From: a virus
Virus record (IMG/VR): IMGVR_UViG_3300025282_000073
Span: 1-44,438 of that record
Reading direction: 5' to 3' (one strand)
DNA: 44,438 bases
The translations under genes were made by a program, and so were the position numbers. The notes under the pieces were generated by a model. It searched no databases. It saw only the letters and a program-made list of their open reading frames with translations, and had not been told where the DNA came from. Below, one piece after another: positions 11,149-31,019 of this stretch (position 1 is the stretch's first letter; the number at the start of each line of letters is the position of its first letter).

Positions 11149-11155
11149 AGCTTTA

Positions 11156-11193
11156 ACGAAAGCGTTATAGGTCCCCCTTTATAACGCTTTCGT
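11156..11193 (+). promoter_or_regulatory. Perfect 14-bp stem-loop in early 5' leader
   Basis: ACGAAAGCGTTATA (11156-11169) and its exact complement (11180-11193) are separated by a C-rich 10-nt loop. No T-tract follows, and the ribosome site AAAAAGGAG lies about 8 nt downstream. It would sit at or near the 5' end of the early mRNA. It could stabilise the transcript, serve as an RNase III-type site, or act as a dyad operator in DNA. Confidence 0.8.
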
Positions 11194-11215
11194 AGAACTT
11201 AAAAAGGAGAATTAA

Positions 11216-12063: not shown

Positions 12064-12065
12064 CC

Positions 12066-12803: not shown

Positions 12804-12814
12804 AACCATTTAGA

Positions 12815-12840
12815 GGGTGGAAGGATTCGTTCTTCCACCC
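12815..12840 (+). promoter_or_regulatory. Intercistronic hairpin with UUCG tetraloop
   Basis: GGGTGGAAGGA (12815-12825), TTCG loop, then TTCTTCCACCC (12830-12840) form an 11-bp stem with one G-U pair. No U-tract follows; the primase ribosome site (GAGGAAAAAG) abuts the 3' arm. It is more likely a 3'-end stabiliser, processing site or translational control element than a terminator. Confidence 0.75.
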
Positions 12841-12851
12841 GAGGAAAAAGA

Positions 12852-15859: not shown

Positions 15860-16020
15860 TGAACTGTTGGCACTGTAATAACGAATTAACTTGGGACGGG
15901 GACCACGATATAGATGAAGAAGACACAGACTATATGATGGTAACAAACTTATCTTGTCTTAAATGTGATGCTTTTGTATTAGTTTATTTACCTAGAAAAA
16001 ACGAAGGAGAAAAGAAATAA
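15859..16020 (+). CDS. Small zinc-ribbon protein, 53 aa
   Basis: 53 aa, start overlapping the helicase stop (TGATG). It contains CWHC near the N-terminus and CLKC about 33 residues later, four cysteines that could bind one zinc, separated by an acidic stretch. It ends directly before the Cas4-like nuclease start. The tail supplies GAAGGAG as that gene's ribosome site. Function unknown; probably a DNA- or protein-binding accessory factor of the replication operon. Confidence 0.7.
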   Translation: MNCWHCNNELTWDGDHDIDEEDTDYMMVTNLSCLKCDAFVLVYLPRKNEGEKK

Positions 16021-16695: not shown

Positions 16696-16996
16696 TAGAG
16701 AAACCCTTCTTCAAATAGCAAACGGCGATGTTGAGGGGCTACTTAAAGCAGAACAATCTTATGGAGACTCCTGGAAGAAAAGAGGAGGAGTGGGTGCTTT
16801 TATGATGTTGGCCAGGAAATGGGACCGAATTGAAAACCAAGTAAAAAAACACGGCTGGAACGTGTTTCTGGCAATGGAAAGAGACAGAAGACCGGAAGGA
16901 ATTGCAGACGATATAAAAGACCTGCGTTGCTATTTACTTTTGATTGAAGACTTTATTAACACAACAGGAGCGTCAAATGAAACCAACTACGATTAA
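16682..16996 (+). CDS. Small helical protein, MazG/Nmad1-like pattern
   Basis: 104 aa from the ATG at 16682, within the nuclease 3' end. Residues about 26-100 read YGDSWKKRGGVGAFMMLARK, then WDRIENQ, then GIADDIKDLRCYLLLIEDF. The YGDSW + RKxDR + acidic helix + DLRxYLLL order resembles the DUF1599/Nmad1 and all-alpha NTP-pyrophosphatase-like proteins of phages (from memory, weak). If correct it would act on nucleotides. It overlaps the next gene by 20 bp. Confidence 0.5.
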   Translation: MKGLSRETLLQIANGDVEGLLKAEQSYGDSWKKRGGVGAFMMLARKWDRIENQVKKHGWNVFLAMERDRRPEGIADDIKDLRCYLLLIEDFINTTGASNETNYD

Positions 16997-17141
16997 AGAA
17001 ATAGTTAAAGGCTTAGAAAAAACAATCAAAGAAAACAAAAAAAACATTGATCGGATAGAAGTTTTAACAACATATTCAGAACCAAACAGGGAGTTAAGTC
17101 GTATCGAGGTTTTATGCACATTTAATACAACAGGAGAATAA
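16977..17141 (+). CDS. Small Lys-rich protein, 54 aa
   Basis: 54 aa from the ATG at 16977, chosen for the AGGAG 6 nt upstream. It has a Lys/Glu helix (IKEIVKGLEKTIKENKKNID) and a short beta segment. It overlaps the previous gene in another frame; the next gene starts 1 bp later. Not recognised. Confidence 0.55.
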   Translation: MKPTTIKEIVKGLEKTIKENKKNIDRIEVLTTYSEPNRELSRIEVLCTFNTTGE

Positions 17142-17142
17142 C

Positions 17143-17454
17143 ATGATTCGTAAACTTTATATCATTGCAAAACGCTGGTGGAGAACCACGCTTTATTTGA
17201 AAAAATGGAAGCCCCAAGTACCCTTAGAGCCCCTTAATTTAGATAAATGGAAACCTAACGAAAAACAAGTGCTTCCTGAAGAAATCACAAAAGGTATTTC
17301 TTTAAAGAAAGTTCCATCAAGTAAACGTGTTGTCAAAAAAGGCCCAGCAAAGAAAAAGAAGGCTAGTGATACACCTCTTGTTTCTAAAGAAGAAATAACA
17401 ATACTTGCGGACTATACTAGCCCACGTCTTTCCCGAAAAAAAGGAAAGAAATGA
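17143..17454 (+). CDS. Basic protein, 103 aa, possible DNA-binding
   Basis: 103 aa with a good AGGAG site. Strongly basic: an aromatic/basic N-terminus (RKLYIIAKRWWRTTLYLKKW) and a Lys-rich segment KKGPAKKKKA near residue 70. No fold recognised. It ends in ATGA overlap with the polymerase gene, so translation is coupled. A polymerase accessory or nucleic-acid-binding role is a guess from charge and position. Confidence 0.6.
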   Translation: MIRKLYIIAKRWWRTTLYLKKWKPQVPLEPLNLDKWKPNEKQVLPEEITKGISLKKVPSSKRVVKKGPAKKKKASDTPLVSKEEITILADYTSPRLSRKKGKK

Positions 17455-19352
17455 GAGATCCAGTACAAATACCTTTAATTGAAACAGAGTCCTCTTGGGC
17501 TCCTCCGTCTTTGTTGCCAGACCTAACACACGCAACAGAAATAGCTGTCGACTTGGAAACAAGGGACCCTAACTTACTACAGCTCGGTCCTGGTTGGGCA
17601 ACCAACGATGGCGAAGTTGTGGGTGTGTCGATTGCGACGAACGACTGGTCTGGCTACTTGCCTTTTAAGCACGAAGGCGGAGGAAACCTCGATAAAGATT
17701 TTGTTTTGGCTTGGGTTAAGCGGCAAATGAGTAGCCCGGCGGATAAGATCTTTCATAATTCTCTCTATGACGTGGGGTGGCTTAAACGCGAGGGTATTGA
17801 AATTCAAGGTAAGATCCAGGACACCATGATTGCCGCGCCTTTAATCAATGAAAATCGACATCGATACTCCCTGGATTCTTTAGGTTTTGAGTATTGTGGC
17901 GACAGAAAAGACGAAACATTATTAAAACAGGCGGCTAGAGACTGGGGAATTAATCCCAAAGCCGAGATGTGGAAGTTGCCGTCAAAATATGTGGGCCCTT
18001 ATGCTGAACAAGACGCGGTGCTAACGCTTAAACTGTGGAATAAAATGAAACCGGTGCTTGAAAAACAGAATTTAACGAAGATTTATGCCTTGGAAAGCGG
18101 TATTTTGCCGTTGTTGATCGAGATGCGTTGGCGCGGTATAAAAATAGACCAGGATAAAGCACAAAAGACCATGGAGCAGTTAAAAGTAAAAGAAGAACAA
18201 ACCGTTAAACAAATAAAGAAAGACTACGGCTATGAAATTGATCTTTGGGCGGCGGCCTCTATTGCTAAAGTGTTTGAAAAAAACTCTTTAACTTATCCTA
18301 GAACCGAGAGAACCAATGCGCCTAGTTTCACAGCAGAGTGGTTAGAAGGACATTCTCATCCTTTACCGCAAGCGATTGTTAAAGCCAGAAGACTCAATAA
18401 ACTGCGAACCACATTTATTGAGAAAATGGTCTTTGGTCATATGCGAAACGGCAAGATTCACGGTCAAATTAACCCATTGCGTTCTGATGGTGGGGGGACG
18501 GTTAGTGGTCGGTTCAGTTACAGCAGTCCAAACCTGCAACAAGTCCCGGCACGGGACCCAGAATTGGGTCGATTGGTCCGAGATTTATTTATCCCGGACG
18601 GCCAAGAGTATTGGGGCGCGTTTGATTACTCGCAACAAGAACCACGGATCACGGTGCATTATGCCGCATTGACTAAACAACTCGGTGCAGAAGAAGCGGT
18701 TGAAGCCTACCAGGGCCAAGATGCAGACTTTCATCAGATTGTTGCAGACATGGCCGGAATTGATCGTAAAAAGGCAAAAACAATCAATCTAGGGTTGTCT
18801 TACGGCATGGGAAAACAGAAATTGACCCAAGCCTTAGACATTCCCGGACCAGAAGCCGAGGCCTTGTTTGCCCAGTACCATAGAAAAGTCCCTTTTATTA
18901 GAGGCTTATCCAATTCTTGTATGCGTAGGGCCTCTAATAAAGGCTTTATCACTACTTTGTTGGGACGCAAATGTCGATTTAATATGTACGAGGCTCGAAA
19001 CGAGAACAGTATTCCACTTTCTTACGAACAAGCTGTAGAAAAATGGGGTAAAGAAGATTTGGTCAGGGCCTATACCTATAAAGCCTTGAATCGTTTGATC
19101 CAGGGTTCTGCTGCTGACATGACCAAACAAGCGATGTTGAACCTTTGGAAAGAAGGCTATGTGCCGTATGTTCAAGTTCACGATGAATTGGATATTGGTG
19201 TTTCAACAAGAAAAGAAATAGAGCACATTAAGGAAATCATGGAGAATTGTGTTACTTTAAAAGTGCCTAATGTTGTGGATGCAGAGATCGGTACTACCTG
19301 GGGGAAAGCAACAAAAGATTATAAAGAGGTTTTAAATGAAGGGGATCAGTGA
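17451..19352 (+). CDS. polA: Family A DNA polymerase with 3'-5' exonuclease
   Basis: 633 aa. Exo I is VDLET (D34, E36), Exo II FHNSLYD (N103, D107), Exo III YAEQD (Y184, D188): an intact proofreading domain. Polymerase motif A is FDYSQQEPR (D392), motif B KKAKTINLGLSYG with Leu447 at the position of E. coli Phe762, motif C VQVHDEL (H577, D578, E579). There is no 5'-3' exonuclease domain, as in other phage Pol A enzymes. The Leu form is common in marine viral Pol A. It is coupled to the basic protein before it and overlaps the HTH gene by 17 bp. It is the replicative polymerase of this phage. Confidence 0.97.
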   Translation: MRDPVQIPLIETESSWAPPSLLPDLTHATEIAVDLETRDPNLLQLGPGWATNDGEVVGVSIATNDWSGYLPFKHEGGGNLDKDFVLAWVKRQMSSPADKIFHNSLYDVGWLKREGIEIQGKIQDTMIAAPLINENRHRYSLDSLGFEYCGDRKDETLLKQAARDWGINPKAEMWKLPSKYVGPYAEQDAVLTLKLWNKMKPVLEKQNLTKIYALESGILPLLIEMRWRGIKIDQDKAQKTMEQLKVKEEQTVKQIKKDYGYEIDLWAAASIAKVFEKNSLTYPRTERTNAPSFTAEWLEGHSHPLPQAIVKARRLNKLRTTFIEKMVFGHMRNGKIHGQINPLRSDGGGTVSGRFSYSSPNLQQVPARDPELGRLVRDLFIPDGQEYWGAFDYSQQEPRITVHYAALTKQLGAEEAVEAYQGQDADFHQIVADMAGIDRKKAKTINLGLSYGMGKQKLTQALDIPGPEAEALFAQYHRKVPFIRGLSNSCMRRASNKGFITTLLGRKCRFNMYEARNENSIPLSYEQAVEKWGKEDLVRAYTYKALNRLIQGSAADMTKQAMLNLWKEGYVPYVQVHDELDIGVSTRKEIEHIKEIMENCVTLKVPNVVDAEIGTTWGKATKDYKEVLNEGDQ

Positions 19353-19674
19353 ATCAAAGGCCGCGTTTTATAAGAATAGAAATTTAAGTATTTATGAAGA
19401 ATACTTAAATGAAGACACCACCATGGAATCAATAGCCACTCGATACGCTTTGACCAAACAAAGGGTTTGGCAGATCATCAGGCGTTGCCAGGTGGGTGAA
19501 GGCAACTATTACGAAGGGTACCAAGCCTTTAAAGACAAAAAAGACTCCTTTATCGCCTCCGGACTCACGGAAGAAGAAATACACGAAGAAATGAGGGATT
19601 GGCTTTCTGAAGAACACGGAGTAAAAACGATTAAAAGAAAGCATGAAAGAATACGGTCTTTGGCAAAACCTTAA
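19336..19674 (+). CDS. Helix-turn-helix protein, sigma region 4-like
   Basis: 112 aa starting inside the polymerase 3' end after GAGG. Residues 29-51 (TMESIATRYALTKQRVWQII) are a typical HTH of the sigma-70 region 4/Mor type. The C-terminal half is charged and ends in a Lys/Arg-rich helix. It is a candidate transcription regulator, the only clear HTH protein in the window. It could recognise the repeated promoter cassettes or the TATTGGC sites, but that is speculation. It overlaps the next gene by 32 bp. Confidence 0.7.
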   Translation: MKGISESKAAFYKNRNLSIYEEYLNEDTTMESIATRYALTKQRVWQIIRRCQVGEGNYYEGYQAFKDKKDSFIASGLTEEEIHEEMRDWLSEEHGVKTIKRKHERIRSLAKP

Positions 19675-20029
19675 ACGAAACTTAAAAAAACCTCTTTGGC
19701 AACGCATTGAAACCGGAGGCACGGGCCGAGGGATCGCTGATGTTTTTGGTGTGCTTGAGGGTCATTGTTGCTGGGTTGAGTTAAAGATCGCCAGGGGCAA
19801 CAAAGTGGCTTTGAGCCCGGAACAAGTCGGTTGGTTGATTAAATTTTCTCGTGCCGGAGTCAGAACCTTTATCCTGGTGGGTACCGATAAGAAAACCATG
19901 TATTTATTCCTAGGGGAAGAGGCCAGAGAAGTCTTGGACTTGGGCCTTAAACACGAACCACGGCTCAAGTTAAAACTGCCTTATGACTGGGAGCTCTTGC
20001 AACAAACACTGTTCTTTGATGGGTATTAA
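19643..20029 (+). CDS. VRR-NUC (PD-D/EXK) nuclease, resolvase-like
   Basis: 128 aa. GGTGRGIADVFGVLEG (D33) followed by CWVELK (E46, K48) and LSPEQVGWL (Q61) is the VRR-NUC signature G-x-x-D...E-x-K...Q. Stand-alone VRR-NUC proteins of this length in phages are structure-specific nucleases, some cutting Holliday junctions. It is the last gene before a promoter cassette and completes the replication/recombination set. Its start lies within the HTH gene; the ribosome site is weak. Confidence 0.85.
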   Translation: MKEYGLWQNLKRNLKKPLWQRIETGGTGRGIADVFGVLEGHCCWVELKIARGNKVALSPEQVGWLIKFSRAGVRTFILVGTDKKTMYLFLGEEAREVLDLGLKHEPRLKLKLPYDWELLQQTLFFDGY

Positions 20030-20034
20030 AGTCC

Positions 20035-20061
20035 TTTACTTTGGGGGTTATTTCCTATATT
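20035..20061 (+). promoter_or_regulatory. Putative promoter cassette 1
   Basis: TTTACT (20035-20040), 15 bp, TATATT (20056-20061), then the leader TAACTTAGAA (20071-20080) shared with the other cassettes. The spacer is shorter than ideal, so the assignment relies partly on the conserved leader. Confidence 0.5.
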
Positions 20062-20097
20062 GTTATTACATAACTTAGAAATAAAATGGAGAAAGAT

Positions 20098-20331
20098 ATG
20101 TTGCCAGGAGTGTTTTGCGAATATATTGCCCGGGAGATACAGAAGACCTTGAAAGACTGTATTGTTGAACCCACATTGGTCCAAGAACCCATCATTAAAA
20201 AAGTAGGCTATGTCAGTGCAGAAGAATCAAACTATGCTGTGGGCCCTTTAACAAAAACAATAAAAGTTATCGATGTTTACGGTACACGGTACAAGGTTAG
20301 TATCGAAGACATGGAGAGGAATTATGAGTGA
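20098..20331 (+). CDS. Unknown small protein, 77 aa
   Basis: 77 aa from the ATG at 20098, preferred over an in-frame ATG at 20086. The GGAG inside that upstream ATG codon region is correctly spaced, and the arrangement matches the other cassettes. It has an N-terminal helix, then TKTIKVIDVYGTRYKVSIED, a short beta-hairpin pattern. The last bases overlap the next start. Not recognised. Confidence 0.6.
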   Translation: MLPGVFCEYIAREIQKTLKDCIVEPTLVQEPIIKKVGYVSAEESNYAVGPLTKTIKVIDVYGTRYKVSIEDMERNYE

Positions 20332-20557
20332 ACCAAAACCTATATTCCAAAACCCTGAGTTGCAGAACATTCTATCTCAGTTGAATAATCTGAGCAGGGC
20401 GGAATTAACCCTTCTTCAGTTCATCATTCAAGGTTTTATCGAAGAACGACCAAAATTCACACCGGAAGAAGTAACCGAGATCAACCAGAAGAATCAAAAA
20501 GCTGTTGATGAATTGTTCACTACAACGATTGAAAGAATCACGGGGGTGTCTGAATGA
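20324..20557 (+). CDS. Unknown small helical protein, 77 aa
   Basis: 77 aa from the ATG at 20324 with AGAGGA upstream, overlapping the previous gene by 8 bp. Almost entirely helical by composition: NILSQLNNLSRAELTLLQFI followed by an acidic helix with Gln/Asn/Lys repeats. Not recognised. ATGA coupling to the following gene. Confidence 0.6.
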   Translation: MSEPKPIFQNPELQNILSQLNNLSRAELTLLQFIIQGFIEERPKFTPEEVTEINQKNQKAVDELFTTTIERITGVSE

Positions 20558-21039
20558 ACATATTTTACTTTGATGAAAGTCCGATTCAATCGGCCCAGGC
20601 ACAGCCTGATAAGCTGTTGGTCAAGATGCCGCTTGAAACAGCCCAGATGTTAAGCACCGCACACAGAGAATTAGACGGTGATGAGTATGCAGATGCCAAC
20701 GGACTTTACAAACGCGCTTACTGGAACCATCCCTGCACGATATGGGCCAGAGCCGGTGTTATTAACTATGCGTGGTTGTATAAACATTTCTTGGCTCTTG
20801 GTAAAGAGTACGCTTATAGATATGGAAGAGAACACGCAAGCATTACAAAACTTAGAGAGGCATTACAGCCTCATCCAGAAAATATAGCTCCTAATCCTGT
20901 TATGACACCCATAGCACAGGCCATGCCTGACGAATACAAGGACAAAGATCCAGTCAAAGCGTACAGAAACTACTGTATCAACGAAAAAACCTATGCGAAA
21001 TGGGAAAAAGGCAGAAAAAAACCGGAGTGGTGGACATGA
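20554..21039 (+). CDS. Conserved phage protein, DKxxVKMxxETAQML family
   Basis: 161 aa. Conserved blocks: MNIFYFDESP, DKLLVKMPLETAQMLSTAH, YKRAYWNHPCTIWAR, GKEYAYRYGREHAS and a C-terminal PEWW. I recall this protein in many T4-like, T7-like and marine phages without an assigned function. The dense invariant His/Lys/Glu/Tyr residues suggest an enzyme. It was considered and rejected as a T4 endonuclease V relative. It is coupled through ATGA overlaps to genes on both sides. Confidence 0.75.
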   Translation: MNIFYFDESPIQSAQAQPDKLLVKMPLETAQMLSTAHRELDGDEYADANGLYKRAYWNHPCTIWARAGVINYAWLYKHFLALGKEYAYRYGREHASITKLREALQPHPENIAPNPVMTPIAQAMPDEYKDKDPVKAYRNYCINEKTYAKWEKGRKKPEWWT

Positions 21040-21146
21040 CTAAATTACTAGACATCATCTTAAATCTTTACGACTGGATCAACCAGACAATAATCAAAAT
21101 CAAGAAAGACCCTGTACAAAGGGTTAAAGGAGGAAACAATGAGTGA
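21036..21146 (+). CDS. Very small protein, 36 aa
   Basis: 36 aa, ATGA-coupled to the preceding gene, with GGAGTGG upstream. It has an amphipathic N-terminal helix (MTKLLDIILNLYDWINQTII) and a basic tail. Its end encodes the strong AAAGGAGG ribosome site of the next gene. It may be a membrane-peripheral peptide or simply a translational relay. Moderate support from coupling only. Confidence 0.45.
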   Translation: MTKLLDIILNLYDWINQTIIKIKKDPVQRVKGGNNE

Positions 21147-21408
21147 AATAATTTTAGACGGAGAACCTATAGAAATGCACGATTTGGTCAATCAGTTAAA
21201 CAATGAACAGATTGTAGGGCTACTCAGAACTATATTCCACAATAGACCAACTGAAGTGTTTGTGGGGATGTACCCTAAAGGCATCATGCGAAGTGCGGCC
21301 CTGGACCAAGAAATCCCTGTTTGTTTGAACGGGACCCTAATTCAAATTAACACCGAGTTTTCGTTCACAGAAGGTGTGATTGGATGGATGGAGGGGAAGG
21401 ATGAGTAA
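21139..21408 (+). CDS. Unknown small protein, 89 aa
   Basis: 89 aa with a strong AAAGGAGG site. Acidic; helix MHDLVNQLNNEQIVGLLRTI, then a beta-rich part with VFVGMYPKGIMRSAAL. Not recognised. It overlaps the next gene by 8 bp. One of about a dozen short genes of takeover type between the polymerase and the clamp. Confidence 0.6.
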   Translation: MSEIILDGEPIEMHDLVNQLNNEQIVGLLRTIFHNRPTEVFVGMYPKGIMRSAALDQEIPVCLNGTLIQINTEFSFTEGVIGWMEGKDE

Positions 21409-21592
21409 AACTGAAATTAGATACAGGTTAGTGGAAGAAGAAGGGCCCTATCTTGAAAACAAAGAAGAAACCAGAGGCTTCACTTTAATTCATGGGCACA
21501 ACCCGAAACTACCCTTTAAAGAGGTGTTGAAAGAGTTTTATAACTCCGTTTTCAAACCAACAATTATTTATAATATGGAAAGGGGGAAGTAA
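21401..21592 (+). CDS. Unknown small protein, 63 aa
   Basis: 63 aa from the ATG at 21401, with GGAGGGGAAGG upstream deciding the start. Contains RYRLVEEEGPYLENKEETRG and a conserved-looking FTLIHGHNPKLPF. Not recognised. It shares its last base with the next start (TAATG). Confidence 0.55.
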   Translation: MSKTEIRYRLVEEEGPYLENKEETRGFTLIHGHNPKLPFKEVLKEFYNSVFKPTIIYNMERGK

Positions 21593-21903
21593 TGAGCATA
21601 GAAGTTGAAATACATTATTATGAAGTCGTAGAAGCCATTGAATTGTATATAAAAGAAAACTACAACATGGATTTAGACTTGGATATTTACTCCGAGAATT
21701 GTGTGTTAGCGGAAGGTATCGTGGAGGTGGAATATCGTGAACTGGAACCTGTTTACAAAAAACACAAGAACGGGAAGGTGGTCAAAAATCAATACGGGCA
21801 TCCTGTTGTTGATCGTGAAAATTCTGAGTATGTAAAAAGACACCTTTCTTTTGATGAAAGAGCCTCGTTTGTTTTTAACATTAATAATAAAAGCGGGTAT
21901 TGA
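21592..21903 (+). CDS. Unknown acidic protein, 103 aa
   Basis: 103 aa, AAGGGGG site. Rich in Glu and Tyr: a helix ending YIKENYNMDLDLDIYSENC, then EVEYRELEPVYKKHKNGKVV. The acidic, Tyr-rich surface recalls DNA-mimic or inhibitor proteins but no family is recognised. It is followed within 2 bp by the next gene. Confidence 0.6.
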   Translation: MSIEVEIHYYEVVEAIELYIKENYNMDLDLDIYSENCVLAEGIVEVEYRELEPVYKKHKNGKVVKNQYGHPVVDRENSEYVKRHLSFDERASFVFNINNKSGY

Positions 21904-21904
21904 T

Positions 21905-22093
21905 ATGAGTAATAATTACGTTGATTATGTTATGGAACTGATCTACCAGGACCTAGACTCAGCAGACGAGAAGGGTTTATTGGACGAGAAGATAGACCAG
22001 ATTTCAAAAGAACACGGTCTTGATGCAGATGATGACCGAGATGATATTAAAGTAAAGATTGCAGAGGAAGTTTATGAGGAGAGTTTTCAGTGA
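21905..22093 (+). CDS. Unknown acidic protein, 62 aa
   Basis: 62 aa from the ATG at 21905; longer in-frame starts would run deep into the previous gene. Extremely acidic and helical (LIYQDLDSADEKGLLDEKID). Its end supplies GAGGAG for the next small gene. Not recognised; could be an antirestriction-type or inhibitor peptide, but only its charge suggests this. Confidence 0.5.
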   Translation: MSNNYVDYVMELIYQDLDSADEKGLLDEKIDQISKEHGLDADDDRDDIKVKIAEEVYEESFQ

Positions 22094-22218
22094 GCATGAA
22101 GAAATATTGGGAAAGAAGGGCAGCAGCCTTTGAACGTCAAAACAAAAAGAACAAACAAATAATCAAACGTATGCAGAAAAGTATTGCAGAGTTTAAGGGG
22201 ATAGTATGGGACAACTAA
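22090..22218 (+). CDS. Very small basic protein, 42 aa (GTG start)
   Basis: 42 aa from GTG at 22090, 8 nt after GAGGAG; an ATG two codons later (22096) is possible. Strongly basic: KKYWERRAAAFERQNKKNKQ and further Lys/Arg. It overlaps genes on both sides. The charge suggests nucleic-acid binding; not recognised. Confidence 0.45.
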   Translation: MSMKKYWERRAAAFERQNKKNKQIIKRMQKSIAEFKGIVWDN

Positions 22219-22418
22219 AGAACGAGATGGTTGACGCTGAACAGGCCCTTTACGACATTAACCCAGAAACCATAACAACACAAAACCGAGACCTTTTCTA
22301 TGAAGAAGTTATGGTGCGCCTGGGCAAAGCCAAACACCCTCAAACCTATAACATAGCGATTGGTTGGGCTGTCGATAAGTATTTAAGAGAAGAAGGTATT
22401 TCCTTTGGTCTATTATAA
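22206..22418 (+). CDS. Unknown small protein, 70 aa
   Basis: 70 aa with AAGGGG upstream. Helical; DRDDIK-type charge is absent and it ends with NIAIGWAVDKYLREEGISF. It overlaps the preceding gene by 13 bp. A weak 6-bp hairpin (GTCTAT/ATAGAC, 22408-22430) spans its stop. Not recognised. Confidence 0.55.
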   Translation: MGQLKNEMVDAEQALYDINPETITTQNRDLFYEEVMVRLGKAKHPQTYNIAIGWAVDKYLREEGISFGLL

Positions 22419-22435
22419 ATCGTGATAGACTAAAG

Positions 22436-22510
22436 ATGATTAAACTTATATGGATGGTTGTCAGTCGCGGGCTAGGTTTTATCCTGTGTTTAATGGCAAT
22501 CCTTTTTTAG
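22436..22510 (+). CDS. Possible 24-aa hydrophobic peptide
   Basis: An ATG-to-TAG frame encodes a mostly hydrophobic peptide, MIKLIWMVVSRG followed by LGFILCLMAILF, one potential membrane helix. It fills the gap between two coupled genes, but has no clear Shine-Dalgarno. Low support. Confidence 0.3.
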   Translation: MIKLIWMVVSRGLGFILCLMAILF

Positions 22511-22514
22511 CCTT

Positions 22515-22727
22515 ATGACTAAATTAAGAATAAAAGCAGTCTTTCAAGATGATCTTGTGGAAGAACTACAAAAAGTAATTGAAGAACTTGACGTGATTCA
22601 AGGCCGCTATGAAAAACTAGAGATTTTATTTTGGCAAATGTCACAAAGACTTAAAGCCTATAACACGGAAGAAGTGGACAAGTTTTTAGAGGCTCAATAC
22701 AGGAATAATGGAGAAACACTACACTAA
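22515..22727 (+). CDS. Small coiled-coil protein, 70 aa
   Basis: 70 aa, weak ribosome site. A heptad pattern (DLVEELQKVIEELDVIQGRY) continues into EKLEILFWQMSQRLKAYN, suggesting a dimeric coiled coil. TAATG-coupled to the next gene. Not recognised. Confidence 0.5.
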   Translation: MTKLRIKAVFQDDLVEELQKVIEELDVIQGRYEKLEILFWQMSQRLKAYNTEEVDKFLEAQYRNNGETLH

Positions 22728-23095
22728 TGGAAACCTTTGTTTATGATGCAAAACAAAGCTATGCGGCTAATTATACTCGTTGGCGACTAATGAACAATGA
22801 TGAACGACAGGAAGAAGGTTTGATGAATTACTCAAATAAGGAAGCTAAAGAAGTTTTTGATAAACAATACAAAGACAGGGTTTGGAGAAAAAAAGAAGAT
22901 TGGATCAAGGACCACGAGCCAGAAACAGAGGACTTTGAAAAGATTGAATCTGTTTTAGCGGTTTATACTTCTTTTATCTTGGACCTTAAACCTATTATTC
23001 CAAAACACATCTTGGACCAAATGATTAATGTAGAAGTCGCTCTAAGACTACACGCAAAAGAACTTGAGGAAAATAATGGCCCGTTGTCCTCTTGA
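22727..23095 (+). CDS. Unknown helical protein, 122 aa
   Basis: 122 aa, coupled to the previous stop. Charged helices with several Trp and Tyr residues: YAANYTRWRLMNNDERQEEG, KDRVWRKKEDWIKDHEPETE. Its last helix ends in HAKELEENNG. No family recognised. It overlaps the next gene by 20 bp. Confidence 0.55.
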   Translation: METFVYDAKQSYAANYTRWRLMNNDERQEEGLMNYSNKEAKEVFDKQYKDRVWRKKEDWIKDHEPETEDFEKIESVLAVYTSFILDLKPIIPKHILDQMINVEVALRLHAKELEENNGPLSS

Positions 23096-23249
23096 AGTCT
23101 TAAAAAAAGCAGAACAGTTTGAAGAAACAACGCCCCCCGCTATTGATAACGACCTGTTGTCATATAACTTATGGCTAAAAAGACACTTTCCTAGACCGTG
23201 GAAAGGGAGGAGTGTCAACTTTAGGTACAAGAAAAAATTGTCTTTTTAG
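23076..23249 (+). CDS. Unknown small protein, 57 aa
   Basis: 57 aa from the ATG at 23076, after GAGG at proper distance. Contains ARCPLEVLKKAEQFEETTPP and a basic end (FPRPWKGRSVNFRYKKKL). The sequence over its stop forms the -35 of promoter cassette 4. Not recognised. Confidence 0.5.
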   Translation: MARCPLEVLKKAEQFEETTPPAIDNDLLSYNLWLKRHFPRPWKGRSVNFRYKKKLSF

Positions 23250-23266
23250 TGGCTTTAAGCTAATCT
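23238..23266 (+). promoter_or_regulatory. Putative promoter cassette 4
   Basis: TTGTCT (23238-23243), 17 bp, TAATCT (23261-23266), then AACTCATTTA and TTTAGAAAGGAG. The downstream blocks match those at 24424 and 25307. Confidence 0.6.
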
Positions 23267-23304
23267 AGCAACTCATTTACTTTATTTAGAAAGGAGAAAG
23301 GAAA

Positions 23305-23694
23305 ATGTATAAGAAAAAAGAAATCAAACAACACTTTGAGGATTTCCTAGAAGAACAAGGGCCTGAGTGGGTACAAGAACACATTGACGAGATCCACCAC
23401 TATGCCTTTAATGAGAATTATTACATCATTGGTTATTATCGAGCAGAACAATGGCTGGGTAGTGCGTCCAATGTTTTTGATGTGCTTACAACAATCCAAG
23501 AATATGAGGATATGCACTTTGGGGAGCGTACAATAGACCTTGGCGACTCTGAGAAAGTGGTCAATATGTATGCCTACATTGTAGGGGAAGAAGTGGTTAA
23601 TGAATGGTTAGAGGACCGTAGAGAAATAGAAGTATTAACCAACCCAACACCAGTAGAGATAGAACAAGCGGTGGAGGTGGGTAATGAGCATTAA
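23305..23694 (+). CDS. Unknown acidic protein, 129 aa
   Basis: 129 aa, first gene of cassette 4, strong AAAGGAG. Highly acidic and Tyr/Trp-rich: FEDFLEEQGPEWVQEHIDEI, YYIIGYYRAEQWLG, and a C-terminal EVVNEWLEDRREIEV. Charge and promoter strength suggest a DNA-mimic or inhibitor of a host protein, but no family is recognised. It overlaps the next gene by 11 bp. Confidence 0.6.
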   Translation: MYKKKEIKQHFEDFLEEQGPEWVQEHIDEIHHYAFNENYYIIGYYRAEQWLGSASNVFDVLTTIQEYEDMHFGERTIDLGDSEKVVNMYAYIVGEEVVNEWLEDRREIEVLTNPTPVEIEQAVEVGNEH

Positions 23695-23917
23695 ATACTT
23701 TTGTGATGACTGTGATAAAGAACTAAAGTTTGATGGTTTTGCTGAAGAATCAGAAAGCGCGGGTTGGGGATATGCTACTCATTTTCACGACATTGGAATT
23801 GTCCATGAGGACAGAGAAAATGAAGACATGAACGCTAGATACCAACATACCTGTAGAGAGTGTGATTTAAAGAATGAGGGTAAAGACTCTTGGTATTTTG
23901 AGGAGGTGTCCAAATGA
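23684..23917 (+). CDS. Small zinc-finger-like protein, 77 aa
   Basis: 77 aa, GGAGG site. Two Cys pairs, CDDCD near residue 7 and CRECD near residue 58, with HFHD between, could form one zinc site. Acidic otherwise. Not assigned to a family. ATGA-coupled to the next gene. Confidence 0.6.
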   Translation: MSIKYFCDDCDKELKFDGFAEESESAGWGYATHFHDIGIVHEDRENEDMNARYQHTCRECDLKNEGKDSWYFEEVSK

Positions 23918-24129
23918 GTGATAAAATAGATCAAGGTGATGTTGCTATTATGCTCGGCTCATTCAATGAGTTTGATGAAATAGATTACAGAATTAGAGAC
24001 TGTGCCACAAAAGGGGTGGTGTGTGTTGTTTACTTCTATGAAGACAAACTGAGTGAAATAGACCAAATAACTGCCTACAATCCAGAAGAAGGAATTGAGC
24101 AAGCATTAGCCGAAAGGCGGGGTGCATGA
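23914..24129 (+). CDS. Unknown small acidic protein, 71 aa
   Basis: 71 aa, very strong GAGGAGGT site. Contains GDVAIMLGSFNEFDEIDYRI and GVVCVVYFYEDKLSEID, an alternating alpha/beta pattern. Not recognised. Coupled by overlap to the membrane protein downstream. Confidence 0.55.
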   Translation: MSDKIDQGDVAIMLGSFNEFDEIDYRIRDCATKGVVCVVYFYEDKLSEIDQITAYNPEEGIEQALAERRGA

Positions 24130-24389
24130 TGCTTGAAGGTTTAGTGTTTGGGTTGGTTGATAATGGGGTTCTTATTGGTGGGGCCGTTACCGGACTAGAA
24201 ATTGAAAGATTTTTCAAAAAAGGTAACGGTGCCATGGGTGCTGTTTGGGGCGGTGGTGTTGGAAATACAATATCTGACCTAATGGGTAGCCTTTTAGACC
24301 CTACAATGCACAATATGGCCCTTGGGATTGTTATTGGCTGTTTAATACCGTTAATCTTTATTCCTTTCTTAAGACGGTTTATTAAATGA
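24126..24389 (+). CDS. Small membrane protein, 86-87 aa
   Basis: Two adjacent ATGs (24126, 24129) are equally placed. Two or three hydrophobic stretches: residues 3-25 (LEGLVFGLVDNGVLIGGAVT), a Gly-rich middle (GAMGAVWGGGVGNTISDLMG), and 66-82 (LGIVIGCLIPLIFIPFL) followed by a basic end. The shape would suit a holin-like or inner-membrane takeover protein. However, it sits in the early region far from the lysis genes, so holin is only a possibility. Confidence 0.6.
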   Translation: MMLEGLVFGLVDNGVLIGGAVTGLEIERFFKKGNGAMGAVWGGGVGNTISDLMGSLLDPTMHNMALGIVIGCLIPLIFIPFLRRFIK

Positions 24390-24400
24390 TTAAGTGGTTT

Positions 24401-24429
24401 TTGACAGTTCCAAGGGTTTTTGCTATTTT
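24401..24429 (+). promoter_or_regulatory. Strong sigma70-like promoter, cassette 2
   Basis: A perfect TTGACA (24401-24406), 17 bp, then TGC-TATTTT (-10 at 24424-24429 with an extended TGn). It is followed by GACTCATTT and TATAACTTAGAAAGGAG before the clamp gene. Confidence 0.8.
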
Positions 24430-24465
24430 AAAGACTCATTTATAACTTAGAAAGGAGAATTTGTA

Positions 24466-25230
24466 ATGTACAATGAAAACATAAATATCCACTTATTAGG
24501 ACTAGCCAGCACCTGTTCGGCTAAGAACGATGTCCGATTTTATCTAAAAGGCGTTTGTATAAAACCTATTGATACCGGCGGGGTTGCCATTATTGCAACT
24601 GACGGTCACCGGTGCGTTTTTTATTTTGATCCGGAAGGGTTCGTAGAGGATGAAATTATAATCTCAACCACTGAAGGTGATGGTAAAGATTTTTTTAGAG
24701 AGGCTAAAAAGGCCCCTAAATTATTTGACCGTGAACCTTTAGTTGTAATGCACGATAAGGACGGGTGGTTAAACACTTTTAATAAAACCACGGGCCAACG
24801 GTTCACACTGAAAGCTATTGACGGGAACTTCCCAGACACTAACGGCCTTTTTAACGGTCTAAACCACTTGGTACCTGAAATGAGTAATAAAGACTTTACC
24901 GGTAGTTTCTCAATATCGTCCACTTACTTAAAAGACTTAAAGGGATTGATTCCAAAAAGTAAAACAATGCCTAAAAAACTTGACGGGTTTACCGTGGTCC
25001 CCGGCCCAACACCAGAAAAGGCCGTTACATTTTATAATGTAGATTATAAATTCATTGTAATGATCATGCCGCTTAAAGCTGAAAAGGAAAAAATTTCACA
25101 GCTTCCAGACTGGGCCGTTGATATGTTGGGTTATGGACTTGAAGAAGTAGAAGACGACTATTTAACTAATTACAATAATGCTGATGAAATTGAACCTTAC
25201 GGGGTTAATCCTTTGGACTATGAAAAATAA
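24466..25230 (+). CDS. DnaN-like sliding clamp lacking domain I
   Basis: 254 aa. NDVRFYLKGVCI followed by IATDGHR (44-49) and IDGNFPD (118-124) match the core and end of domain II of bacterial beta clamp (ATDGHR, DGRFPD). FIVMIMPLK (196-204) matches the VVMPMRL end of domain III. The three-domain bacterial clamp has about 366 aa; here domain I is absent and an acidic 50-residue tail is added. Two domains per subunit would need a trimer for a six-domain ring, as in PCNA or T4 gp45. It has its own strong promoter and is followed by an intrinsic terminator, so it is expressed as a single gene. No clamp loader gene is visible. Confidence 0.75.
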   Translation: MYNENINIHLLGLASTCSAKNDVRFYLKGVCIKPIDTGGVAIIATDGHRCVFYFDPEGFVEDEIIISTTEGDGKDFFREAKKAPKLFDREPLVVMHDKDGWLNTFNKTTGQRFTLKAIDGNFPDTNGLFNGLNHLVPEMSNKDFTGSFSISSTYLKDLKGLIPKSKTMPKKLDGFTVVPGPTPEKAVTFYNVDYKFIVMIMPLKAEKEKISQLPDWAVDMLGYGLEEVEDDYLTNYNNADEIEPYGVNPLDYEK

Positions 25231-25251
25231 GGTTTAAAAAGTCTTTTGATT

Positions 25252-25285
25252 AAGGCCCTAGGTATTCATTGCCTAGGGCCTTTTT
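25252..25285 (+). terminator. Strong intrinsic terminator after clamp gene
   Basis: An 11-bp perfect stem, AAGGCCCTAGG (25252-25262) with CCTAGGGCCTT (25272-25282), has a 9-nt loop and a run of five T. Confidence 0.93.
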
Positions 25286-25312
25286 GCATAACGCGGGGTT
25301 TTTTGCTATTTT
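25284..25312 (+). promoter_or_regulatory. Putative promoter cassette 3
   Basis: TTGCAT (25284-25289) begins within the T-run of the preceding terminator. Then 17 bp and TGC-TATTTT (25307-25312, extended -10). The leader TATAACTTAGAAAGGA (25323-25338) is the same as in cassette 2. Confidence 0.7.
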
Positions 25313-25346
25313 AAAAACTCAATATAACTTAGAAAGGAATAACAAC

Positions 25347-25595
25347 ATGAAAATACTAATAGAAATAGATCTTGATAATGATGCGTTCTGGATATCAGAA
25401 GAAGAACGGGATCTAAAAGAAGCCCAGCGCATTTTATCAGATGTTGGCAATATGATTGATAGCCATGCTTACTTTGGTTCTGGTCGAATGTATGAGGCAA
25501 TTGAAATTATGAAGAATAAAAACCTTCAAGATATTAACGGGAACACCGTTGGTTCTTTTAAGTTGGTTGATGATCAAGGGAGGGTTCTATCATGA
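25347..25595 (+). CDS. Unknown small protein, 82 aa
   Basis: 82 aa from the ATG at 25347, set by the AGAAAGGA leader of cassette 3. Starts MKILIEIDLDNDAFWISEEE with an acidic helix; ends GSFKLVDDQGRVL. It resembles small early phage proteins of the form IxIDxDNxAF (recalled from many phages, function unknown). ATGA-coupled to the next gene. Confidence 0.65.
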   Translation: MKILIEIDLDNDAFWISEEERDLKEAQRILSDVGNMIDSHAYFGSGRMYEAIEIMKNKNLQDINGNTVGSFKLVDDQGRVLS

Positions 25596-25915
25596 AAAAC
25601 ATTAAGATCAAAAAATTTGGATCAGGTAATAATCATTTGCTAATCAGGGAAAACCTAGGGCGGGATCCAGACGGCGGGCCGTCAATGATTGCTTATTGGT
25701 TACAGTCTTATGATTCCATTATTGCTTTGGCTCTGCATAGACCGCATGGGTTCCATAGTCTTTGTTTAGATGCTAAGACTTGGGATTATTCCAAAACCAC
25801 GGCCAAGCACCGGAACGCCTTTATGGATCGGTTCACGCCTTGGGCTGTGAATAATACTAATAGCACCACTAAACGCATTAGTACGGGTGATATTATTCTG
25901 GAAAATCTTAACTAA
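25592..25915 (+). CDS. Unknown protein, 107 aa
   Basis: 107 aa, GGGAGGG site. Contains GSGNNHLLIRENLGRDPDGG, LHRPHGFHSLCLDAKTWDYS and an Arg/Asn-rich end. His, Trp and Asp spacing could suggest an enzyme or metal site, but none is recognised. Last gene of the early half, closed by a strong terminator 19 bp after the stop. Confidence 0.6.
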   Translation: MKNIKIKKFGSGNNHLLIRENLGRDPDGGPSMIAYWLQSYDSIIALALHRPHGFHSLCLDAKTWDYSKTTAKHRNAFMDRFTPWAVNNTNSTTKRISTGDIILENLN

Positions 25916-25933: not shown

Positions 25934-25961
25934 AAAGGCCACGGGATCCCGTGGCCTTTTT
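25934..25961 (+). terminator. Perfect palindromic intrinsic terminator
   Basis: AAAGGCCACGGG (25934-25945) and its exact complement form a 26-bp palindrome centred at ATCC-GGAT-type core, followed by T residues to 25961. It ends the early transcription unit and may also work in the opposite direction. Confidence 0.93.
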
Positions 25962-26059
25962 ATTGCCTGTTTAAGCCATTAGTTATTGATTTGGTACTTA
26001 GGCAATAGGTCAGGCAATTGGACCACGGTACACGGTTCACGGGCGGTCCAGCTTAAATG

Positions 26060-26221
26060 TATTGGCTGATAGTGTTCTGTAGTGAATAAATAAAACTTTT
26101 TTTTAAAAAAATCTCTGTTTCAGCCAATAAGCCAATATCTTTTTTTGAAAGGTATAACAGTTATGGTTTTCTGAGCAATTGGCTGATGTATTGGCAGGGT
26201 ATTGGCTGGTTTTAGCCAATA
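26060..26221 (-). repeat. Iteron block B, inverted copy of block at 11.0 kb
   Basis: Six exact TATTGGC/GCCAATA sites start at 26060, 26123, 26131, 26189, 26200 and 26215, with a near-match (AATTGGC) just after 26176. The reverse complement of 26098-26221 matches 10989-11115 in two long sub-blocks. Site spacing is preserved: 8 bp in one pair, 11 bp in the other. Confidence 0.85.
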
Positions 26222-26318: not shown

Positions 26319-26373
26319 GATCTGTGTTACCGTCTGGATCGGGCGGCAAGCTCATGTCCAGATATCACAGATC
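26319..26373. repeat. Nested inverted repeat (cruciform/RNA hairpin)
   Basis: Outer arms GATCTGTG (26319-26326) and CACAGATC (26366-26373) enclose inner arms TCTGGA (26333-26338) and TCCAGA (26357-26362). Both are perfect complements. Confidence 0.75.
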
Positions 26374-26439
26374 GGGGTGCAAGCTCCCATCCAGAAATTA
26401 AAAACTGGATCGAGAATTTGTATAAAAACTGTACAGTTT

Positions 26440-26455
26440 AACGGGAGCTCCCGTT
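26440..26455. repeat. 16-bp palindrome AACGGGAGCTCCCGTT
   Basis: A perfect palindrome followed by TATTGTTATTTT, so it may act as a rightward terminator; it could also be a dyad protein site. Confidence 0.7.
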
Positions 26456-26695
26456 TATTGTTATTTTAGCGCGTTATTCCTTGTTTAAAGCCCTTTTCAT
26501 CCTTCTGGGTATATTGGGTTATTTACTTTATTAATTAACTTAAAAAAGGCCCTTGGTTAGCCTCACACATAAAATATATACCAGTGCACCATAACCCGTG
26601 AATATTTAACGGCTAATCATGGACCGTGAACCGTGGTCCGTGGATCATGCACCAGTGGTCCAAGGGTTAGATCGTGGGCGCTAGACCGTGGCCGT

Positions 26696-26713
26696 AGCTG
26701 CAGCGCTGCAGCT
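26696..26713. repeat. 18-bp palindrome AGCTGCAGCGCTGCAGCT
   Basis: Perfect dyad made of nested GCTGCAGC units, with GTGGATC words on both sides (26640, 26716, 26730). Confidence 0.85.
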
Positions 26714-26930
26714 GCGTGGATCATGGACCGTGGATCGTGCATATAGGCCCTTTATTGCATGGGGCACCCCCCTTTATTCATGGATTGTATAGCGTTGACC
26801 CTGTGCTGAGTTTTTGAGACTCATGGACCTAAACTTATTTACTTTTTGTAATATGTGTTTTTTTAGTGTAAAAAGGACTTTGACATGTAAAAATTTTTTT
26901 GCGAAATTTTTTAAAATACAGGAGTAAATT

Positions 26931-27098
26931 ATGGCTATTGGTTTAAGTAAGTGGTTTAAAGAAACATTCCTTGGATATGAGGAGAAAGTAGTGAGAAATC
27001 GTACCAAAAAGGGAAGGTATGTAGCAGACGATAAGTCAACACCTAATATTAATGAGGCTTACACAACTGTAAACGTCAAAATAAAAAAAGATAAATGA
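26931..27098 (+). CDS. Small basic protein, 55 aa, first late gene
   Basis: 55 aa, ACAGGAG site 6 nt before the ATG. Amphipathic N-terminus (MAIGLSKWFKETFLGYEEKV), then a Lys/Arg-rich part with RTKKGRYVADDKSTPN. ATGA-coupled to the spanin gene. The motif FLGYEEKV...TKKGRYVADDKSTPNINEAY recurs, as I recall, just upstream of lysis genes in other marine phages; function unknown. Confidence 0.65.
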   Translation: MAIGLSKWFKETFLGYEEKVVRNRTKKGRYVADDKSTPNINEAYTTVNVKIKKDK

Positions 27099-28465: not shown

Positions 28466-30522
28466 TGCCGCTTAGACCCATAGAAACCTACGAACAACGT
28501 CTCGCGGAGCAGGAAAGGCAAACGAGGGCAAAAGCTATGGTCCCGGGCGGGCTTTCTTCTATGCTGCCAATGGCAGCCTGGATGGGAGGTTTGATCGCCC
28601 CAAGCTCTGGGATCACCGATTACTCAGGACTTTATCCTAAACCACCCACAGACGAGGGCTTCACAGGTGAAACAATGCCCAGTTTTGCTGAAAATATCCG
28701 AGAAAAACGCTATTTAGACGCATTTTACCAAGGTTTGGGGCTTACAGGTGATCTTGCTATAGGCGCTGGAGCTGTTTACCCTCCAGCTTTGGCATTGGGT
28801 GCCGGGATGAAAGTGATAAGCGGTATGGGCAAAGCAGCCAAAACCCAAGAACAAGCGGACATGGCAAGAAGGATCCTTCCTAGATACTTTGTAAATGAAG
28901 CCGGCGGTGTTCCAAATGCAGATGTTTTACGAATAAAATTACCAAAATCACACAATACCACGATAGAAGCAAAGTATGTCGAAACGAGAGACGGTAAGAT
29001 TATAATGGCTCCTAGTATTACGACCCCTTCTGGGGGTACCCATTTAGCACTGGACCCTAAGTCTTTTATTTACCGTGACTTGGACCAGGCTAAAACTGGC
29101 TTAATAGATTTTGCTTTGACCGACGAAACACTTCAATTAGGGAAGCCGGCCCGATCAAAATCAAGAGAAGAAACGGTTTCCAAAATTCGTAAAAATTTGG
29201 AATCTGAAAGACATGCTTCTGTCCTACCTGATGAAACAGGGATTATTGATGAAAACTTCGATTTTATACCGTTTACAGAAAAGCCTCTTCTCGATACAGA
29301 AATGAGCATTAAAGGTGATCGTGCAAAAATGACTAGAGAAGATATAGATAGGATGTGGGCAGAGAATGCAAAGCAAGATATTGGCCGCATAGACGAGCTC
29401 ATGGACAGAGCGGCTGCGAGGAAGCGGGGCATAACAGTATCACAAGCGGCTGAAGAACGTAAAGCGAAGAATGTTGCGTTTGAAATATCTACACCACGAA
29501 GACCAGACGTTTTTGCCAAAGCAGACCAATTAGGAGCCAAAGCCGATGAATTATTGGAGTGGCAGAAGCCATTAACGGAACAACAACCGGGAGTACAAGA
29601 AAAAATTAAAAATTTAATTGGTGAAGATTCTTTTAACAAAGCTGCTGCTGATGGGCTCACCGGCGAAGACGTTTATGGAAACTTTGAGGAGGTAATGTTA
29701 AATGATGATTTAGCACAGTATGGTTTGGAGTTTTTAAAACCTAAACTGTCTACAGAGAAACTTGGTGCAGGCGCTTATCTCAACGAGGCAGGGATCAGGG
29801 GTATTGTGTATGGTCCCGAATCTGTTGAGGTTTTTGACCCCGTAAAATATAGAAAAGCAGAACCCGGAGCCAAACTTCCAGGGTCGTTACAACCACCGAA
29901 AAAACCCATTGGTTTAACAAACAAGAGGATTACGGCAAGACAACTTATTTCTGGGCGCATAGACCCTGATTTTTATGCGAAAGACGACTTAATGGATGGT
30001 GTTGGTTCGATTCGGATAAAAAAGAAACCACATAAGTATTCAACAAGCGCGAGAGAGGTTGAAAAGGTGGCCCCTTGGGTGTTTCAGAAGAAAGGGACAG
30101 TAAGCAAACAGGGCCAACCAGGCATAATGGATTACGATGAAATAATAGAGCTGTTTTCTGAAGCAGACCCAACTTGGGCTGCACAACTAGACGAAGCAAC
30201 ACGAGTACGCTTAGACGTTGATACACCAGGTCTTACTCCCGAGGAACTCATAAATAAGTGGCTTAGAAACGATGATTTAATACCAAGCCAGGCAGACGAG
30301 GTTGCTGAGTACAACAGGATGGTTGAGTACCAAGACGAAGTTAGTGAAACACTTAAATCAAAGGGTTATACCCCGGAAGGGATGGCTGATGATGAAGTTA
30401 GTAGCGTTTATTACGAGGCAGAAGACGTCTTTGTAGACGTTGAAGAGGATGGACTACCACCCTTTAATCGCGGCGGCCCTGTCACCAATCCCCTATACTC
30501 AGACAAGAAGTACATTATCTAA
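28465..30522 (+). CDS. Large ejected/polyvalent-like protein, 685 aa
   Basis: A hydrophobic stretch at about residues 85-115 follows a Pro/Gly-rich start. The middle contains DELLEWQKPLTEQQPGVQEK and, further on, LNEAGIRGIVYGPESVEVFD. I recall this pair of motifs (LLDWDxPLSEQ ... GIxGIxY...VFD) as the C-terminal half of ART-type domains in phage polyvalent proteins. The usual N-terminal half (HGSPHxFDxF) is not seen. The C-terminus GGPVT-N-PLYSDK is almost identical to that of the transglycosylase before it. Likely packaged in the virion and injected; enzymatic activity is unproven. Confidence 0.6.
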   Translation: MPLRPIETYEQRLAEQERQTRAKAMVPGGLSSMLPMAAWMGGLIAPSSGITDYSGLYPKPPTDEGFTGETMPSFAENIREKRYLDAFYQGLGLTGDLAIGAGAVYPPALALGAGMKVISGMGKAAKTQEQADMARRILPRYFVNEAGGVPNADVLRIKLPKSHNTTIEAKYVETRDGKIIMAPSITTPSGGTHLALDPKSFIYRDLDQAKTGLIDFALTDETLQLGKPARSKSREETVSKIRKNLESERHASVLPDETGIIDENFDFIPFTEKPLLDTEMSIKGDRAKMTREDIDRMWAENAKQDIGRIDELMDRAAARKRGITVSQAAEERKAKNVAFEISTPRRPDVFAKADQLGAKADELLEWQKPLTEQQPGVQEKIKNLIGEDSFNKAAADGLTGEDVYGNFEEVMLNDDLAQYGLEFLKPKLSTEKLGAGAYLNEAGIRGIVYGPESVEVFDPVKYRKAEPGAKLPGSLQPPKKPIGLTNKRITARQLISGRIDPDFYAKDDLMDGVGSIRIKKKPHKYSTSAREVEKVAPWVFQKKGTVSKQGQPGIMDYDEIIELFSEADPTWAAQLDEATRVRLDVDTPGLTPEELINKWLRNDDLIPSQADEVAEYNRMVEYQDEVSETLKSKGYTPEGMADDEVSSVYYEAEDVFVDVEEDGLPPFNRGGPVTNPLYSDKKYII

Positions 30523-31019
30523 TGGCTAATAAGAAACAAGAGGATTTAACCTCCAGGCAAGAAATCTTTGCTCAAAACATCGCGTTGGGTATGACTAAGA
30601 CCAAAGCCGCACTAAAAGCCGGATATTCTCCCAAAACCGCTTCTAATACAGCGTCTTCTTTAACTTCAGACAAAAACCATAAAGTACAAGAAAGAATTAC
30701 ATTCTTACAAAAAGGAGCAGCCAATCGGGTGATGCTCAGTTTGTCTACACACTTACTTGATTTGATGGAGATTCGAGACAAAGCCCTTTCCAAAGGCTCT
30801 TTTTCTGCAGCCGTTGCAGCCGAAGTAGCTAGAGGCAAAGCGGCAGGGCTCTATGTCACTAAATCAGAACTAACGATCAATAAGATAGAGAGCATGAGCA
30901 AAGAAGAGATTATTGAGCGCCTCAATGATATGTATAAGCAAACAGGAGGGGTTTTGCCCGATACTAAAATCATTGACTTAAAACTAAAAGATGAAACAAA
31001 AATTAACGGAACTACCTGA
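30522..31019 (+). CDS. terS: Terminase small subunit
   Basis: 165 aa. LTSRQEIFAQNIALGMTKTK, then AALKAGYSPKTA, is the DNA-binding HTH of Terminase_2-type small subunits (residues 9-40). A central helical oligomerisation region and a C-terminal segment follow. It overlaps the large subunit gene by 29 bp. The role is recognition of packaging start sites and regulation of the motor. Confidence 0.88.
   Translation: MANKKQEDLTSRQEIFAQNIALGMTKTKAALKAGYSPKTASNTASSLTSDKNHKVQERITFLQKGAANRVMLSLSTHLLDLMEIRDKALSKGSFSAAVAAEVARGKAAGLYVTKSELTINKIESMSKEEIIERLNDMYKQTGGVLPDTKIIDLKLKDETKINGTT

Follow-up and report, generated by a model that had tools for sequence, protein, structure and literature searches.

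Why would a phage keep two inverted copies of one noncoding element at the opposite borders of its early genes? The question is raised by the 44,438-base virus record IMGVR_UViG_3300025282_000073 (the window), in which block A (10989–11115, + strand) and its inverted copy, block B (26098–26221, − strand), bracket the early/replication module (11216–25915, + strand). The pair is inverted, keeps a conserved geometry and co-occurs with a gene for a helix-turn-helix (HTH) protein. The reading favoured here, with a probability of about one half (0.48), is a transcription switch in which this HTH protein, encoded by the phage, would assemble at the two borders; that it binds the arrays, and which way the switch runs, is inferred from sequence.

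The inverted pair and its reality

Block A matches the reverse complement of block B at 79% (blastn of 26060–26221 against 10989–11115, minus strand; E-value 2.8e-24, with all E-values of A–B matches being within-contig comparisons), and blastn of 26060–26221 across the whole record yields no match besides 10989–11115. A repeat search of the window resolves two inverted arm pairs, one of 46 nucleotides (nt) with 93% complementarity (11069–11114 and 26098–26143) and one of 38 nt with 92% complementarity (10989–11026 and 26184–26221). An earlier note on this DNA had reported the inverted match between 10989–11115 and 26098–26221 with a diverged middle and conserved site spacing; its coordinates are correct, and the alignment bears out the description.

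The 7-bp site TATTGGC occurs 16 times in the window against 5.65 expected, an approximately threefold over-representation that is reached in none of 100 shuffles. Eleven of the 16 copies fall inside blocks A and B, which are the sole clusters in a whole-genome scan of the window for TATTGGC and related words. Block A scores 70 against the reverse complement of block B and only 13 against block B in direct orientation, while random windows of the same contig give a mean of 10.7 (standard deviation 1.6) and a maximum of 20. Because the score of 70 lies far above this null maximum, and given the TATTGGC excess over shuffles, a chance origin of the pair is rejected. The doubt that the second copy might be an assembly artefact is also removed because block B recurs in three separate contigs, L004 (99.8% over 9,767 bases), L005 and L006. 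In L005 and L006, block B is 86–91% conserved and the coding DNA nearby is just 72–77% identical; thus, the noncoding block is more constrained than its neighbours. Terminal inverted repeats of a linear genome are rejected as well since both copies are internal and the flanking genes are continuous (window, L004, L006, G001 and G002). The inverted A/B pair in the window is real.

Architecture of the arrays

Block A was delineated by repeat search, blastn, site counts and spacing analysis. Its outer sites lie at 10989–10995 (+), 11004–11010 (−) and 11015–11021 (−), with a degenerate fourth site near 11027–11034 (−), and the inner part consists of a 40-bp spacer, a direct pair (11075–11081 and 11083–11089, +) and an A/T-rich tract (11090–11134). 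Block B, delineated by repeat search, blastn, site counts and its conservation in L005 and L006, contains outer sites at 26215–26221, 26200–26206, 26189–26195 and 26177–26183 (one mismatch), an inner pair at 26131–26137 and 26123–26129, and an A/T-rich tract (∼26078–26122) on the early-module side. An extra TATTGGC site (26060–26066, +) is located past the block B tract and has a one-mismatch equivalent at block A (GGCAATA, 11136–11142); several array copies carry another (−) site past the A/T-rich tract.

The geometry of the TATTG-type blocks, with sites at offsets 0 (+), 15 (−), 26 (−), 39 (−), 86 (+) and 94 (+) followed by the A/T-rich tract, is kept within one or two bases. At a tolerance of at most one mismatch, the window, G001, G002 and the B copies of G013 and L006 have three to four of the four outer sites, G016 and G006 have two, and the G013 A copy has none (null mean 0.02–0.04), and the A copies are more eroded than the B copies in these matches. 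The A/T-rich tracts have AT contents of 67–89%, and most of them rank in the upper 10% of the 45-nt windows of their contig, with a weak value in the G013 B copy (0.67).

Conservation of the pair across related contigs

The same arrangement is observed in 22 contigs representing approximately 15 distinct lineages. The copies are always inverted and 14.7–24.3 kb apart, copy A is flanked by the SNF2-helicase and Pam3_gp32-like genes, and copy B closes the early module; the earlier proposal that they bracket the replication/early module therefore holds in the window and 21 related contigs. In seven contigs (window, G001, G002, G008, G013, G016 and G017), the inverted A and B copies lie 14.7–23.5 kb apart and their match reaches z values of 7.9–37 against random same-contig windows.

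The site word differs between lineages, being TATTGGC, TATTGAG (G016 and block A of G006 and G014), TATTAGA (G008) or GATATCA (G017). In distant contigs, the two copies within one genome resemble each other more than the same copy does across two genomes: block A scores 70, 52 and 33 against the reverse complement of block B in the window, G008 and G017, respectively, compared to A–A scores between genomes of at most 41, 20 and 13. By these comparisons, A and B change in concert, through one binding protein that reads both copies, sequence exchange, or both. The same array is also found next to the SNF2 gene of contig L304 (DKQR01000054; 1113–1214), which is binned with a Marinimicrobia metagenome-assembled genome (UBA7303), a weak hint of the host. 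In the 40 nt following the direct pair, which contain no strong site match, window A is 0.78 alike to window B and 0.55 alike to L304 A, and this non-site likeness hints at exchange between the copies.

The HTH protein and its co-occurrence with the arrays

The putative binder of both blocks is a 112-residue HTH protein encoded directly after DNA polymerase A (PolA; 19336–19674, +), to which its Pfam Mor match, its co-occurrence with the arrays and its AlphaFold2 model point. The protein matches Pfam Mor (PF08765) at 4.2e-06 with 27.1 bits (cut-off 24.9), and its G008 homologue scores 19.5, below the cut-off. Other matches are to UPF0122 (YlxM-like) and, more weakly, to Sigma70_r4 and KorA (Pfam KorA E 0.0068). 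The AlphaFold2 model has a predicted local distance difference test (pLDDT) score of 83, and foldseek detects a local HTH resemblance to 7bca (34 columns, root-mean-square deviation 0.9). A Mor-like architecture, with a dimerisation part followed by the HTH and a fold match to 1rr7, is not seen (1rr7 E 1.4, 52 columns). The recognition helix is nearly invariant between the TATTGGC and TATTGAG lineages when compared by eye, and that helix alone therefore does not explain site specificity.

In a gene-content comparison, the HTH gene is present in contigs with TATT-type arrays and absent from pelagiphage-type contigs. A profile search detects the HTH protein in 9 of 49 contigs, all nine with an array at A (G017 weak, 2.1e-6). 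PolA is held by 24 of the 49 contigs, and the HTH-negative ones with a measurable A gap have 17–133 bp and no array there, the presence of an array in HTH-negative contigs having been assessed at A. Relatives that keep the module and lack a copy, which the earlier note would have counted against the pair, do exist: HTVC027P, HTVC023P and many pelagiphage-type contigs have a short gap at A without an array, but they also lack the HTH gene. Regulator and arrays thus appear to be gained and lost jointly, as a correlation across few independent events because array presence requires two changes on the SNF2 tree.

A stronger test used the association predictively. With the HTH gene as the sole criterion for choosing contigs, A was located via the SNF2 gene, and the inverted copy was then sought. 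An inverted copy is present in 15 of the 16 contigs that are long enough, 19.5–24.3 kb away (E 5e-6 to 2e-21), with six shorter contigs outside the count; the exception, G085, ends 21.2 kb from A. Several of the 15 contigs are near-duplicates, so the test adds approximately eight lineages. A small-terminase-like gene, recognised by motif, directly follows B in 13 of these 15 contigs.

Two more small genes share the array pattern, at 16685–16996 (including G017) and 26931–27098 (not G017). The former encodes a 103-residue protein of unassigned family that is kept in every compared array-bearing contig covering the region. This protein is a possible array partner; it is not preferred to the HTH protein because no DNA-binding domain is recognised in it.

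A proposed transcription switch at both borders

The elements around the blocks suggest how such a switch could be laid out. On the outer side of block A, a methyltransferase gene (10410–10952) and an SNF2-type helicase gene (8956–10413) are read outward from the block (8956–10952, −), preceded by an adjoining promoter-like element, PL (10956–10983, −; TTTACT-16-TATACT), which would drive both genes. A second, early promoter-like element, PR (11119–11148, +; TTTACT-16-TATACA), lies on the inner side of block A; all promoter elements are consensus matches. Between the last early gene and block B, a terminator-like hairpin, AAAGGCCACGGGATCCCGTGGCCTTT TTATTG (25934–25966, +), is read directly from the sequence, and lysis and late genes are located downstream of block B.

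In the favoured reading, A and B would be two assembly sites of the HTH protein, each with about six 7-bp sites over ∼100 bp followed by an A/T-rich tract. Array A would stand between the divergent promoters PL of the SNF2 operon and PR of the early operon, and the mirror array B past the early terminator, ahead of the first late genes. The HTH protein would build up with the replication genes and fill both arrays. A filled array A would damp or redirect the A promoters, and a filled array B would activate an outward late promoter, locally and possibly by an A–B loop. The orientation would be inverted because each array faces its own outward transcription unit.

The Mor match supports the switch since Mor is an activator of middle/late transcription. 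Mor-type activators serve promoters with a −10 but without a −35 element, and the Mu promoter Pm lacks a −35 hexamer and requires Mor (PMC4390567). In the TATTAGA clade, the A–B likeness extends outward until just short of the SNF2 and small-terminase start codons. A −10-like box is positioned 44–46 bp past GAGGGCA in both A and B copies (one A copy deviates); a −35-like TTGG box is observed at 23–25 in the A copies and is missing from the B copies, as expected of an activator-dependent promoter at B. Moreover, phi29 p4 is an example of a single protein with both effects, repression of early promoters and activation of late ones (PMC3100819). The −10-only promoter of the Mor type and the p4 precedent together favour a transcription switch at both borders.

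Simpler control elements were tried and set aside. Divergent TTTACT-N16/17-TATRCT promoters flank block A in five contigs, and no inward TTTACT-type promoter is found at block B in the promoter scan of those contigs. A simple operator of TTTACT promoters is rejected because B lacks an inward one and because G008 has arrays and the HTH gene with no TTTACT hits at A. Terminator-like hairpins formed from the outer site pair were dropped because they are inconsistent between contigs.

Several observations weigh against the switch. The binding of the HTH protein to the arrays rests on sequence comparison. The HTH occupies residues 10–52 of 112, and approximately 43 residues of the Mor profile are covered (profile positions 56–96 only); the whole protein has no significant fold match in the PDB (best E 0.56). 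An array with an A/T-rich tract looks equally like an initiator site. The outward element and the −10 comparison of the TATTAGA clade were chosen after the sequences had been inspected. The window itself shows no outward promoter near block B, and close relatives diverge just outside block B; the shared outward promoter therefore holds in one clade only.

Like Mu Mor, the protein is a small HTH protein from a phage that the Pfam cut-off assigns to the Mor family, and the B outward promoter of one clade resembles Pm in its −10-like box and missing −35-like box. Mor, however, recognises a single dyad, made of two 5-bp repeats, at −43.5 (PMC4390567), in contrast to about six 7-bp sites in two inverted copies here, and the present HTH is N-terminal with a different C-terminal part. 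The likeness to phi29 p4/p6 is that one early protein with several sites would perform both early repression and late activation, in a multi-site nucleoprotein complex with A/T tracts; in phi29, the p4 fold differs and the early and late promoters share one region, whereas the arrays here are 15–24 kb apart. The plasmid regulators KorA and ArdK share the local HTH resemblance (7bca and the KorA profile), but the whole-protein match is not significant. To our knowledge, KorA and ArdK use single operators rather than paired distant arrays.

Alternative functions of the pair

Coordinated shut-off and paired origins, two ideas of the earlier note, are both possible. The main rival, tentative and less probable than the switch, is a pair of replication origins. 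The initiator would be either the HTH protein or some other protein of replication, the arrays would be iterons, and the adjacent A/T-rich tract would be melted. One site would start theta replication, and the other would act as a second origin or fork barrier, like SPP1 oriL/oriR. SPP1 has two origins of repeats and AT-rich sequence, ∼13 kb apart and bound by one protein, gp38 (PMC6316719). The arrays likewise form two separated copies, 15–24 kb apart, of repeats with an A/T-rich tract, although A/T enrichment is weak in some copies such as that of G013 B, and their putative binder is encoded among replication genes, directly after PolA. B is also well conserved without a consistent promoter. 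The systems differ in that oriL lies inside gene 38, whereas both arrays are intergenic and inverted, and in that the 112-residue HTH protein is unlike an origin-binding protein.

The matches of the HTH protein are to transcription regulators, and no replication initiator is recognised among the early proteins scanned. GC skew tracks the coding strand only, with no switch at blocks A and B. Predicted unwinding energy ranks A high, but of seven contigs, only three have block B in their set of the 12 least stable 80-bp windows, and in four it falls outside. Pelagiphage-type relatives keep primase, UvrD-like helicase, PolA and SNF2 helicase without the HTH gene and the A array, so the replication apparatus works without them. 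These relatives are not decisive against an origin role because HTVC027P, 023Pt_psg01 and HTVC023P, all without arrays, carry other tandem repeats (GCTTG-type, 33-bp and 58-bp) at the early/late border (L119 16499–16635 and 17396–17446; L121 15366–15470; L122 12469–12567 and 14918–15089), which are candidate origins or control sites there.

A broader, unlikely proposal combines both functions in a two-ended nucleoprotein device. The HTH protein would build fixed-geometry arrays at both borders and join them, coupling replication firing with the early-to-late switch, and regulator and sites would coevolve, the recognised sequence being replaced almost entirely from one lineage to the next.

Considerably less probable as the main function is a looped or handcuffed domain, in which the protein would join the arrays over 15–24 kb and isolate the early module or limit copy number. 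The two multi-site arrays have the same polarity relative to the module, are the only site clusters in the contig and co-vary in sequence, but two independent binding sites would leave an identical signature. Such a loop is compatible with either the switch or twin origins.

Inversion of the 15-kb module by site-specific or homologous recombination between the copies, an idea of the earlier note, is very improbable. The inverted 38–46-nt arms at 92–93% would suit it, and the non-site likeness of the window copies is compatible with some exchange. However, the comparison of relatives that the note had proposed shows that, in 22 of 22 paired contigs, the module keeps a single orientation relative to both SNF2 helicase and late genes, no recombinase or integrase is recognised among the scanned early-module genes, and the array is too complex for a simple crossover site; an invertible segment with a site-specific recombinase is thus rejected. 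Equally improbable is a packaging (pac) signal that the small terminase subunit would recognise, duplicated at A: B directly precedes the small-terminase gene in the TATTAGA clade, but most relatives have this gene with or without arrays, and in the window it lies 4 kb from B, at 30522–31019.

Neighbouring genes and other features

The early module encodes Pam3 gp32-34-like proteins, an AEP-type primase, a UvrD-like helicase, an exonuclease, PolA, the HTH protein, an Hjc-like nuclease, a pyrimidine-dimer-glycosylase-like protein and a clamp-like protein. The last of these (254 residues, 24466–25230) may be a sliding clamp of the phage: it weakly resembles the DNA polymerase III beta clamp (PF02767, below cut-off) and matches the phrog_947 processivity factor (E 3e-4), with a stronger match to phrog_3007, labelled RusA-like resolvase. 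The leader of the first early gene (11155–11195) contains an inverted repeat, AACGAAAGCGTTATA ... TATAACGCTTTCG. Block B is followed by ∼600 bp of noncoding DNA (26320–26930) with many palindromes and GGACCACGG/CCGTGGTCC-type repeats, of which 26023–26042 pairs with 26624–26643; similar words occur at 13775, 15891 and 24986. Tandem 15-bp repeats at 1–81 and 8594–8714 encode Thr-Thr-Gly-rich stretches of two late proteins, and the start of the window inside such a repeat is likely an assembly break. Terminase and primase place the phage near the Pelagibacter phages HTVC027P and HTVC023P, phage 023Pt_psg01 and DSL-LC04.

Significance for uncultured marine phages

Block B has no match in any cultured phage of a 50,697-record collection, and no hit in these records covers more than a third of the HTH protein (best E 8e-3, to a sigma factor). 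In cultured phages, neither megablast with window positions 1–25000 nor tblastn with one late protein finds a match. The early-expressed genes of the cultured relative HTVC027P are all of unknown function (PMC12753301). No described gene-control or origin element was found for this uncultured marine phage group, and a two-ended device of this kind is not known from any cultured phage.

An HTH regulator and iteron-like arrays are familiar components; the novelty lies in their arrangement as a distant, inverted pair that coevolves. Turnover of the sites with the pairing retained constitutes a natural experiment in the coevolution of a DNA-binding protein and its sites, and the paired array serves as a sequence marker that predicts the regulator. 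Together with their likely protein partner, the arrays offer a testable cis-regulatory system for a large group of uncultured marine phages.
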